Shown: one piece after another, positions 42,891 to 46,669 of the stretch
How positions within the stretch are numbered: position 1 is the first letter of the stretch
Layout of the letters: the number at the start of each line of letters is the position of its first letter
DNA from: Prochlorococcus sp. AG-402-K16
GTDB taxonomy: Bacteria > Cyanobacteriota > Cyanobacteriia > PCC-6307 > Cyanobiaceae
Direction: 5' to 3'
Length of the DNA stretch: 64,000 nucleotides
NCBI GenBank assembly: GCA_003216795.1
Contig: QCIH01000006.1
Location: forward strand, 28,389-92,388
Notes under the pieces: model-generated
Told to the model about the DNA's origin: nothing
What the model saw: only the letters and a program-made list of their open reading frames with translations
The model's database searches: none
Position numbers and translations under genes: made by a program

Positions 42891-43562
42891 TTGTTCATTA
42901 CTGTTTGCGGACAAAAAGGGGGGGTGGCCAAGACCTGCACAAGCATTCACCTTGCTAGTATTTGGCATTCTGAAGGTAAAAAAGTTTGCATAGTCGATGC
43001 CGACAAGAATAGATCTGCTTTAGCATACGCATCAAGAGGCAATCTTCCATTTCCAGTTTTCCCCGTCAGTTCAGCTGCTAAAGCATCAAGATCATCAGAA
43101 ATTGTAATAACTGATGGCCAGGCTAGCAGTGATCAAGAAGAACTTAAACACTTAGCGTATGGTTCAGATTTAGTTATCTTACCTACAACTGCAAAGGCAA
43201 GATCAGTAGAATTAACTGTTGAACTAGCTAATTTATTAAGCAACTTAAAAGTTAACCATGCTGTAGTAATAGTAAAAGTTGATTTTAGACAGCAGAAAGC
43301 AGCGCAACAAGCCAAAGCAGCTCTAGAAAATTTTGGTTTATATGTTTTTGATACATTCATACCCTTACTTTCAGCATTTGATAAAGCAGAAGCCTCGGGC
43401 AATGCTGTATTTGAAGCTGTAGACGATTTAGGCAGATCAGATCCTCGTCGAATGACGGGCTGGTCTGCTTATTGTTCAATTGCCTCACAAATTCCATGCC
43501 TGATTTCGAAGCCCTCATCCGACACCAACAACTTAAACAACCAACAACCAATCAGCGCTTAA
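42891..43562 (+). CDS. ParA/MinD-family ATPase
   Basis: TTG start; deviant Walker A GQKGGVAKTCTSIHLA; IVDADKNRSA. Confidence 0.88.
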   Translation: MFITVCGQKGGVAKTCTSIHLASIWHSEGKKVCIVDADKNRSALAYASRGNLPFPVFPVSSAAKASRSSEIVITDGQASSDQEELKHLAYGSDLVILPTTAKARSVELTVELANLLSNLKVNHAVVIVKVDFRQQKAAQQAKAALENFGLYVFDTFIPLLSAFDKAEASGNAVFEAVDDLGRSDPRRMTGWSAYCSIASQIPCLISKPSSDTNNLNNQQPISA

Positions 43563-43741
43563 AAGTAGTTGATTCTCCTAATTCTGAAGAAGAAGAAGAA
43601 AACGAAGAAGCAATAATTAGACAATCTGGATTATTAGTTAATTTTTTTGGGGGTTTTATAGGCTCTGTAATTGGAACTTTAACAATACTGTTTCTTTATA
43701 TGAATGAATATCTACCATTAGATTTACTAAAACTTAAGTAG
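43496..43741 (+). CDS. small acidic/TM protein overlapping the ParA gene
   Basis: MPDFEALIRHQQLKQPTTNQRLKVVDSPNSEEEEENEEAIIRQSGLLVNFFGGFIGSVIGTLTILFLYMNEYLPLDLLKLK. Start within the ORF track's 43472..43741. Confidence 0.6.
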   Translation: MPDFEALIRHQQLKQPTTNQRLKVVDSPNSEEEEENEEAIIRQSGLLVNFFGGFIGSVIGTLTILFLYMNEYLPLDLLKLK

Positions 43742-43763
43742 TATATTCACTATTAATTTCCAC
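43734..43763 (-). pseudogene. orphan duplicate of argJ 3' end (encodes VEINSEYTT*)
   Basis: Reverse complement GTGGAAATTAATAGTGAATATACTACTTAA versus argJ end GTTGAAATAAATAGTGAATATACGACGTAA at 45431..45460: 26/30 identical, all differences at codon position 3. Confidence 0.75.
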
Positions 43764-43829
43764 CTTTGGCATTTAGTATATCCACCTTGCTGTAATCCAT
43801 TGGTATCACATAAGCAAGTTAAGAAATAA

Positions 43830-43851
43830 TAATCACACCATAATCACAGTC
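43830..43851 (+). repeat. R1 left copy: taatcacaccataatcacagtc
   Basis: 21/22 identical to 45342..45363. Confidence 0.85.
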
Positions 43852-43958
43852 GGTGAAATAATAATCACACTTTTAGATTTTTAAATAAAAACACTTGAAA
43901 GCATTAGGTTTAATTTCTGTGATCTTTAAAGTAATCACAGAATAATCACATTTATCCC

Positions 43959-43981
43959 AAAGGTGAGTATTCATTTTTGAG
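43959..43981 (+). repeat. R2 left copy: aaaggtgagtattcatttttgag
   Basis: Near-identical to 45367..45388 (aaaggtgtgtattctttttgag). Confidence 0.75.
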
Positions 43982-44011
43982 GAACGGAATGCAAATATCC
44001 TTTAGCGGCAT

Positions 44012-45322
44012 CTAATTCTCATTAGTTTTCCCAGAATATTCTCCATCTGGGGAGAAATCACTTAAATAAAACTGATCCCACCCTAAGTTATGAAGTTTTT
44101 CTAAATTAGAAAAATACTGATCTCTGTAAAAAGAAATATCATAAATATTTCGTCTTCTATATTCCGTTAATCCATTTCTCGAGTTGTAAATTTCAGGATA
44201 ATCATACACATAAGCACTCATAGAATTTACCAATATTTTCTGTTCCATTACCCACGCTTCACATCTTGTTAATTTGGGTGATGTAAAAATATAACTTCTA
44301 TATTCCCCTGATTTCTTTCTATCCTCCAAATCATTTGTAATTCCAGGTTTTATAAATTCATCATCAATATCAGCAATATAGAAATAGCAATCACTATTTG
44401 CATATTCATCATCCTTTAAGAAAGACAAATAATTATCTTTACCTTTAGGAGAACACCCACAACTTAGAGTATGACCATTTGCAATTGAATTGAATAAAGT
44501 AATGTGATGTCTTCCACATTCACATAAAGATACAACTCTCCTAGCAGAATTAATATTAGTTCCCCAATCTCTCTTGATAGTTAGTTTGCCAAATGTTTTA
44601 TTTTTGATCTTTTCCCAATAGTAATTAGACCTCCTATTTGACCTCTCTCTTTGAGCACAAACATTGCATGCTTTGACTTTCTTTAATTCCTGAGCGCCAA
44701 TAAAGTGAGGATCTCTACCGCAAGCACATTGCACCCACCAATAGGAATCACCATCAATAATTCCATGTTTCTTTTTATCTAAAATTAAATTTAAAACAGT
44801 TAATTTACTTCCAGGTGGTTTATAACCTGTTAGATCATTCGTGATAGAAATCCTGAAACAATCTGGGCATCCATAACCCTCAATATGACTATTGGGAATA
44901 ATATCGAATTCCCCATTTCTTTCAGAATTATGTCCATCAATTTTACAAATTATAGTTACCTTCTTATCAGCACCTCTATATTTAACTTTTGAGTAATCAT
45001 ATCTATCCCCATGTTTCAACCTAAATTGATTAATGACTTCTTCTTGAGTTTTTCTTTTACTGCGATTTAATTCTAAAGTTTTCATTCTTTGTCTTTTCTT
45101 TCCACAAAAAGGACACCCATTATTTGATTTTGCATTTGACAAATGAGTAGATGGTTTTATTGGTTTAAAACCACATTCGGGACAACCAATAATGACTTCT
45201 TTATCTTTAGTTACATATATAACTTTGCTGTAATTATATTTTTCTCCCCATCTTTCTCTCGCTAAACATATCCACTCTTGAGTTGTATATCTCCTATGCA
45301 TTTGCTTCTTCATAAAAGACAC
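44012..45322 (-). CDS. predicted multi-zinc-ribbon protein with GIY-YIG-like C-terminal nuclease domain
   Basis: Several CxxC pairs (CPECG/CPFCG, CPDC, CACG/CNVC, CECG/CGC), two tandem GD/EKYxYSKVxY...CP.C modules, C-terminal CYFYIADIDDEFIKPGITNDLEDRKKSGEYRSY...CEAWVMEQKIL. Confidence 0.65.
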   Translation of the reverse strand: MSFMKKQMHRRYTTQEWICLARERWGEKYNYSKVIYVTKDKEVIIGCPECGFKPIKPSTHLSNAKSNNGCPFCGKKRQRMKTLELNRSKRKTQEEVINQFRLKHGDRYDYSKVKYRGADKKVTIICKIDGHNSERNGEFDIIPNSHIEGYGCPDCFRISITNDLTGYKPPGSKLTVLNLILDKKKHGIIDGDSYWWVQCACGRDPHFIGAQELKKVKACNVCAQRERSNRRSNYYWEKIKNKTFGKLTIKRDWGTNINSARRVVSLCECGRHHITLFNSIANGHTLSCGCSPKGKDNYLSFLKDDEYANSDCYFYIADIDDEFIKPGITNDLEDRKKSGEYRSYIFTSPKLTRCEAWVMEQKILVNSMSAYVYDYPEIYNSRNGLTEYRRRNIYDISFYRDQYFSNLEKLHNLGWDQFYLSDFSPDGEYSGKTNEN

Positions 45323-45341
45323 TACAATCCAGAAGAAATTA

Positions 45342-45363
45342 TAATCACACTATAATCACAGTC
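45342..45363 (+). repeat. R1 right copy: taatcacactataatcacagtc
   Basis: 21/22 identical to 43830..43851. Confidence 0.85.
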
Positions 45364-45366
45364 TTG

Positions 45367-45388
45367 AAAGGTGTGTATTCTTTTTGAG
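45367..45388 (+). repeat. R2 right copy: aaaggtgtgtattctttttgag
   Basis: Near-identical to 43959..43981. Confidence 0.75.
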
Positions 45389-45430
45389 AGTTTATATAGT
45401 CATCTCAATTGAACCTAAGGATCACAAAAA

Positions 45431-46669
45431 TTACGTCGTATATTCACTATTTATTTCAACATATTTTTTAGAAAGATCGCATCCCCAAGCTGTGCCTTTC
45501 GATTCGCCAGAATTTAGATTAATCATAATTTTTACAATATCATCCACTAAATATCTACCTTTCATTCTGGACTTAATATAGTTTGTAACTTTTTGTGGAT
45601 CATATTTATTTAACTTGCCATTTTCCAAAATCTGAGCGTTTCCTATATACAAGTCAACGTCATTTAAATTAAATTTAACTCCAGAATTACCTGCAGCAGA
45701 AATGATTCGTCCCCAATTCGGATCACAACCATGTATCGCAGTTTTTACCAAGGCAGAATTACAAATAGATTTCGCGAGCATAATTGCATCATCTGTATTT
45801 TTTGCTCCTTGAACCAAAACTTCTAATAAACAATTTGCTCCCTCTCCATCCCTTGCAATATTTTTTGCCAAGTTCTGACATACAATATCAATCCCTTGTT
45901 GGATAATGGGAAAAAACCTTTTTTCAATTTTCTCTCCTGCATTTATTCCAACAAAAGAATCATTCGTGCTTGTTTCTCCATCAACTGATATTGCATTAAA
46001 AGATTTTTGAACTGCAATAGCAATCATTTTGTCCCATTCTTCTTTTTGAATACCAGCATCACAGGTTAGAAAAGCAAGCATTGTAGCCATGTTGGGGTAA
46101 ATCATTCCTGAACCTTTTGCAAAACCTGCTATTTTTATTTTTCTACCTTGAATAATCGTCTCTATTGACACTTTTTTCAAAGTCAAATCAGTAGTTAAAA
46201 TTGCTTCTGCTGCATTTTCAAAATTATTACCCTTTAAATCACTTACTAAATTCGGTAAATTTTTTACTAAATCATTTATTTGTATTGGAACACCAATTAC
46301 ACCAGTTGAGCACATTAAAACTTCTTCTTCATTTATTCCTAAAAGTTCCGCAATCTTTCCTGTAGCAATTTGAAAATGTTGAATGCCAAGATTTCCTGTA
46401 CAGGCATTTGCTTGACCAGAATTAATTAGTATTGCTCTTACAAAACCTGAAGTTGTTTTAATCCTTTCCTCACAAATATCCACACAAGAAGCTCGAACTA
46501 ATGATTGGGTAAACATCCCACTAAAAATACTTCCTTCTGGAGCAAGTATTAGTGCTAAATCTTTTTTATTAGAAGCTTTTAAACCAGCAGATATCCCAGC
46601 AAAAAGAAACCCCTTAGGTGTTACCTTACTGTCATCAACAAACGACCAATTGGAATCTAACTGGCTCAA
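45431..46669 (-). CDS. argJ: bifunctional ornithine acetyltransferase / N-acetylglutamate synthase
   Basis: KGSGMIYPNMATMLAFLTCDA, DGETSTNDS, HGCDPNWGRI. Confidence 0.95.
   Translation of the reverse strand: MSQLDSNWSFVDDSKVTPKGFLFAGISAGLKASNKKDLALILAPEGSIFSGMFTQSLVRASCVDICEERIKTTSGFVRAILINSGQANACTGNLGIQHFQIATGKIAELLGINEEEVLMCSTGVIGVPIQINDLVKNLPNLVSDLKGNNFENAAEAILTTDLTLKKVSIETIIQGRKIKIAGFAKGSGMIYPNMATMLAFLTCDAGIQKEEWDKMIAIAVQKSFNAISVDGETSTNDSFVGINAGEKIEKRFFPIIQQGIDIVCQNLAKNIARDGEGANCLLEVLVQGAKNTDDAIMLAKSICNSALVKTAIHGCDPNWGRIISAAGNSGVKFNLNDVDLYIGNAQILENGKLNKYDPQKVTNYIKSRMKGRYLVDDIVKIMINLNSGESKGTAWGCDLSKKYVEINSEYTT

Follow-up and report, generated by a model that had tools for sequence, protein, structure and literature searches.

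The 3′ end of argJ as a probable attachment site of tyrosine-recombinase elements in Prochlorococcus

In Prochlorococcus, the 3′ end of argJ is very probably the attB site of a family of tyrosine-recombinase elements. The window analysed here is a stretch of 64,000 nucleotides from Prochlorococcus sp. AG-402-K16, in which a nuclease-like gene is bracketed by two copies of the argJ tail. With the same high confidence, this doubled tail is attributed to site-specific recombination, and the cassette between the copies was most likely inserted in trans. The site and the mechanism are well supported; empty and filled sites, hybrid tails, arrays, matched arms, and an integrase gene beside argJ can all be read from the sequences.

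The argJ gene of the window (45431..46669, minus strand; PF01960 ArgJ, E=1.5e-129) is the host gene whose 3′ end would provide the chromosomal attachment site. The first-pass annotation had described 30-nt argJ tails on both sides of the nuclease gene, and this was confirmed, as the two copies are identical at 26 of 30 positions with four synonymous differences. In the argJ orientation, the right copy (45431..45460, minus strand) is GTTGAAATAAATAGTGAATATACGACGTAA and the left copy (43734..43763, minus strand) is GTGGAAATTAATAGTGAATATACTACTTAA. They differ at offsets 2, 8, 23, and 26 only, each a synonymous third position, and both encode VEINSEYTT*. No third match with 7 or fewer mismatches was found in the whole window on either strand, and thus a chance similarity of the two tails was ruled out. 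The exact core AATAGYGARTATACNAC occurs in the whole genome only at the two tail copies. A common repeat elsewhere in the genome, which the first-pass annotation had named as a finding that would speak against its proposal, was ruled out on this ground. The left copy is no longer an argJ end; its 3′ part doubles as the stop region of a small convergent ORF (43496..43741, plus strand), whose stop codon overlaps the ancestral argJ stop and which is intact after the insertion. A ParA-like ATPase gene (42891..43562, plus strand; PF01656, 2.3e-13) forms the conserved flank, which adjoins argJ in empty relatives. Since argJ abuts the small ORF in these relatives, the left copy is seen as the displaced old argJ end.

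Comparison of empty and filled sites places the att core AATAGTGAATATAC at 43741..43754 (distal copy, with the crossover inside) and at 45438..45451 (argJ copy), both on the minus strand. The integrated element (43755..45451) is 1,697 bp from core to core, a stretch that is missing from all empty relatives. From the sequence and the codon association described below, the right tail copy would be attL, in which the host argJ runs to the core and is followed by the element-borne GAA TAT ACG ACG TAA. The left copy would be attR, composed of the left end of the element, GTGGAAATT, and the ancestral right half of attB, GAATATACTACTTAA; the same junction is found in relatives. When the attB of the window was rebuilt from the left half of the right copy and the right half of the left copy, the resulting GTTGAAATAAATAGTGAATATACTACTTAA proved to be present, without a mismatch, in 8 empty relatives. 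The corresponding attP, rebuilt from the copies, likewise reads VEINSEYTT*. The two tail copies of the window are therefore best read as attL/attR hybrids. No tRNA or other RNA gene that could be the target was found at the site, the nearest tRNA gene in the window being about 11 kb away; a tmRNA gene about 2.2 kb from the small ORF bears no sign of use as a target.

How are the empty and filled sites distributed in the genus? The argJ gene was detected in 233 of 267 genomes, and the DNA downstream of argJ was read for about 150 of them. Each species is represented by one genome, often an incomplete single-cell assembly, and the loci were chosen largely in the order of argJ similarity; the count is based on 132 non-redundant loci with both flanks visible. 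In 60 loci the site is empty, and argJ is directly followed by the small convergent ORF and the ParA-like gene. The argJ end of these empty sites is ...AATAGCGAATATACTACTTAAG, and the stop codons of argJ and the small ORF overlap. The other 72 loci, among them that of the window, are filled. Their inserts measure 138-9,335 bp, with a median of 1.97 kb, and fit precisely between the stop codon of argJ and a second tail, which lies at the stop of the small ORF. Since the loci were taken largely by argJ similarity with one genome per species, the filled fraction of 55% should not be read as a frequency in populations. Beyond the 132, further loci of both kinds, filled and empty, exist among more distant members of the genus. 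The comparison with insert-free relatives, suggested by the first-pass annotation, thus gave the expected arrangement, and the empty-site codons are kept in the distal copies. As in integrative elements that use gene 3′ ends, the target tail is doubled at both ends of the insert and a precise empty site exists in relatives. In genome G006 (L269 4103, L270 2688), about 21 kb separate argJ from the small ORF, the two are inverted relative to each other, and both have an att-type tail, which suggests an inversion with one end in the argJ array. In AG-436-D21 (L195:16666-17905), argJ is seemingly frameshifted into two overlapping ORFs, which reflects a true lesion or else a mistake in the single-cell assembly.

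The last codons of argJ differ between filled and empty loci. The insert status is tied to the codon at position -3 (p 1e-18), the codon at -2 (p 2e-14), and the stop codon (p 1e-13), and more weakly to those at -5 (GAG; p 5e-4) and -4 (p 0.04). No clear insert-linked signal was found in argJ upstream of codon -5 (p at least 0.0045, uncorrected, in about 50 tests). All the codon changes are synonymous and lie within the last three to five codons. In all 72 filled loci, argJ has kept an ending of the form ACN ACN stop, written in element-type codons; argJ ends and internal tail copies have ACG, ACA, or ACC together with TAG or TGA. The empty-type ACT ACT TAA was found in 46 of the 58 recognisable distal copies, the remainder having decayed by single changes (14 further copies were too degenerate to be scored). 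This split of codons between argJ ends and distal copies is the pattern shown by attL/attR hybrids. The earlier proposals that both tails evolved as argJ ends and that the incoming element swapped the host tail for its own synonymous version are borne out by these data.

In the mechanism proposed here, the attP of the element would bear a short argJ-like tail. Recombination within the shared core AATAG[T/C]GA[A/G]TATAC would leave argJ ending in the last codons of the element (attL) and would displace the former argJ end, which continues to serve the adjacent gene as its stop region, to the far side (attR). Since each inserted element must restore ArgJ, the attP tails would evolve under coding constraint, and for this reason the tail copies would differ only synonymously. 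The tail recoding is the product of an att site in a coding sequence, with attP and attB diverging under coding constraint. Repeated insertion would generate tandem arrays of cassettes at argJ. For the window element, insertion would most likely have been performed by a recombinase supplied in trans. I infer mobilisation in trans, a circular intermediate, and present activity of the system.

Internal tails were found in 21 of the 72 inserts, dividing these into two or three cassettes, and arrays with more tail copies exist (L274 and L275). The larger inserts with internal tails are thus read as tandem cassettes. The cargo is unrelated between loci. It includes YadA-anchor proteins, restriction-modification systems, HNH, PD-(D/E)XK, and zinc-ribbon nucleases, and helicases, as well as PEBP, CobA-like, thiamine-binding, outer-membrane, and TPR proteins. 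The commonest cargo genes of the argJ inserts (L033-L148) encode relatives of YadA-anchor surface proteins; they form a cluster of 43 ORFs, and an array often holds several of them. It is possible that they provide phage-receptor or grazing variation. One complete argJ cassette (L124:1356-3358) consists of the paired genes for a HaeII restriction enzyme and a C-5 methylase. No conjugation gene was noticed among the top 25 families listed for 83 insert ORFs.

The cargo gene of the window (44012..45322, minus strand) encodes a putative endonuclease with zinc-ribbon repeats and a GIY-YIG-like C-terminus. It matches phage endonuclease families (phrog_681, 5.8e-23; phrog_559, 5e-21), and the pattern YIA...GIT...R...E, which I take to be typical of GIY-YIG enzymes, is conserved in its relatives. 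The structure model is of low confidence, and its weak Foldseek matches, including the GIY-YIG folds Slx1, UvrC, and UPF0213, are not significant. Judging from the sequence, the nuclease is probably a zinc-ribbon/GIY-YIG-like cargo protein. Relatives were found in only 8 other genomes among 267 searched, and not at argJ; three of them lie at other chromosomal places (L271:3057-4325, L272:2724-3605, and L273:2169-3224). The nuclease was not found in viral contigs.

The first-pass annotation had interpreted the locus as a homing element resembling a gene drive, in which the nuclease cuts insert-free argJ 3′ ends and double-strand-break repair copies in a cleavage-resistant recoded tail. Although the gene resembles phage endonucleases, is probably GIY-YIG-like, and has a tail that differs from the empty-site tail, this reading is highly improbable. 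In homing, the nuclease gene would be present in filled alleles and absent from empty ones, but about 70 relatives without the window nuclease carry both tails around quite different, mostly non-nuclease genes. Discordant ancestry of argJ had also been expected from co-conversion, but argJ clearly differs only in the last three to five codons and shows no insert-linked discordance upstream of the last five, which argues against co-conversion. The relatives of the nuclease, present in only 8 other genomes and not found at argJ, also speak against homing. Moreover, a doubled tail with arm repeats is not the product expected of homing. Homing was rejected on the cargo diversity, the absent co-conversion, and the recombinase linkage at argJ.

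Paired direct repeats of about 10 bp, in several classes, were found at both ends of most cassettes. In the window they take the form TGTGATTAT[A/G]GTGTGATTAT, also written CTGTGATTAT[A/G]GTGTGATTAT, and occur as a right-end pair CTGTGATTATAGTGTGATTAT (45341..45361; 0 mismatches, with 0.01 chance matches expected in the window) and as a left-end pair CTGTGATTATGGTGTGATTAT (43829..43849), both on the minus strand. Further TGTGATTAT repeats of the left arm (at 43862, and a pair at 43931-43951) lie within 43855..43951 on the minus strand. The TGTGATTAT pairs flank the nuclease gene inside the tails. A GTGATACCAATGGATT motif (43794..43809, minus strand) recurs near the left ends of inserts. The arm repeat was not found elsewhere in the genome of the window. 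These paired repeats look like integrase arm sites. The two ends of the same cassette share far more 7-mers than other pairings of ends (6.63 versus 2.54; none of 5000 permutations exceeded 3.75). In some cassettes the arm classes are mismatched between the ends, probably reflecting unresolved arrays or decay.

A tyrosine recombinase gene lies about 130-180 bp past the argJ stop in AG-449-P16 (P0001), AG-436-D21, AG-311-D23, and AG-363-B04 (L288-L291), the ArgJ proteins of AG-311-D23 and AG-363-B04 being only 49-52% identical to that of the window. In each of the four genomes, TGTGATTAT or TGTGATTTAT repeats exist between argJ and the recombinase gene. More distant members of the recombinase family are present in the argJ island of scB245a_519A13, AG-410-A05, and AG-402-C09. 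The argJ recombinases keep the Arg, the R of xxR, and the Tyr, and the usual His of H-x-x-R is replaced by Tyr. The structure model of the integrase is of low confidence. No relatives of the argJ integrases were found in viral contigs and phage records. The genome of the window has a 434-aa tyrosine integrase on contig C9 (L268, G000:C9), where neither an argJ core nor a window-type arm repeat was found. This gene is followed by an HNH gene, other small genes, and a serine resolvase gene, and the resolvase is related to one adjoining the argJ recombinase in AG-436-D21.

The window element has a single, endonuclease-like ORF and no recombinase gene, and it appears to be a non-autonomous one-gene cassette of 1.7 kb with att sites and sets of arm repeats. 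Since a recombinase of the argJ family is carried by only 2 of the 72 inserts, this cassette and most others would either depend on a trans-acting recombinase or be remnants that no longer move. The latter possibility, that the inserts are decayed CIME-like remnants of integrase-bearing elements, agrees with the rarity of the recombinase and with the decay of several distal tails, but is rather unlikely. Many inserts are compact one-gene units with intact ends and arms and no recombinase remnant detectable in a profile search, and very similar PEBP cassettes retain both ends in several genomes. In another reading, no site-specific recombination takes place at present, and the locus is a flexible island of the replacement type whose inserts spread chiefly through homologous recombination between the argJ and ParA-side flanks. 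In its favour, these flanks show high conservation, and whether a cassette is shared depends hardly at all on how closely the argJ genes are related (95.25 versus 95.08% argJ identity). This reading is improbable, as it leaves unexplained why the core is precise, why the tails are hybrids with element-type codons, why tails occur inside inserts, why the arm repeats match, and why recombinase genes lie beside argJ. Homologous recombination over the conserved flanks could act in addition to site-specific integration and spread existing inserts.

Site-specific integration at argJ thus remains the preferred reading, although several observations weigh against it. With a recombinase of the family in only 2 of the 72 inserts, it would need action in trans; the argJ recombinases lack the usual His, and one of them (L132) shares only 26% identity with the rest; and some cassettes have mismatched arm classes. 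Neither a free circle nor attP-bearing mobile DNA was found, as the 27 exact core matches in IMG/VR lack the argJ-stop context and were judged from their context to be chance matches rather than viral attP sites. In integrons, small one-gene cassettes accumulate at a single chromosomal location, and the recombinase is mostly found elsewhere. The argJ site resembles them in holding small one-gene cassettes, but its shared core is the argJ tail and its cassette ends have arm repeats. As a tentative extension, which may well prove wrong, a genus-wide integron-like exchange can be considered, in which the argJ end docks mostly integrase-less one-gene cassettes with arm repeats of several classes. 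Each cassette would be moved in trans by the matching recombinase of rare helper elements, and a streamlined ocean bacterium would in this way have an inexpensive stock of genes for its surface and its defence.

In literature searches, which reached few subscription papers, no account was found of elements that integrate at argJ. CIMEs and site-specific accretion islands such as those related to ICESt1 (Pavlovic 2004 and Bellanger 2011, as cited in PMC5704250) are described as integrase-less, retaining attL and attR, and growing by tandem accretion. The argJ inserts likewise have an att pair at a gene end without an integrase gene and accrete in tandem through shared att sites, but most of them are one-gene cassettes of 0.7-2 kb, no conjugation genes were noticed in them, and they are present at argJ in about half of the sampled species. 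Tycheposons of Prochlorococcus, as described in PMC10872708, are 4-200 kb cargo islands bordered by tRNA genes and carrying a tyrosine recombinase. The argJ system shares the genus, the type of recombinase, and the cargo islands, but is set apart by its size and its site, a protein gene with no tRNA gene nearby. The picocyanobacterial integrase family cluster158946 is reported to adjoin tRNA-Phe or tRNA-Cys genes, with no known mechanism (PMC10187409). By its description, it resembles the argJ system in its atypical tyrosine recombinase, variable islands with restriction-modification cargo, and a small serine recombinase often nearby (as in AG-436-D21), but the site here is the argJ 3′ end rather than a tRNA gene. 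In the additive genomic island of Methylopumilus at tRNA-Lys, the cassettes are marked by recurring copies of the final 20 bp of their target gene (PMC10872708); the marking is alike, but a tRNA target gives a repeat without coding constraint. Protein-gene 3′ ends are also used by prophage e14, which supplies icd with a recoded 54-residue C-terminus (12 nucleotide changes and 2 amino-acid changes; PMC11148124), and by SGI1, which uses the last 18 bp of thdF/trmE and forms tandem arrays (PMC2297512). These, however, are single large elements with their own integrase.

The argJ end would thus be a protein-gene docking site in about half of the sampled Prochlorococcus species, where small cassettes with surface and defence genes are gained and lost. 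This accounts for the synonymous variation in the last codons of a core biosynthetic gene. It also offers a testable rule for gene gain in a streamlined genome, namely that the arm class predicts the recombinase.
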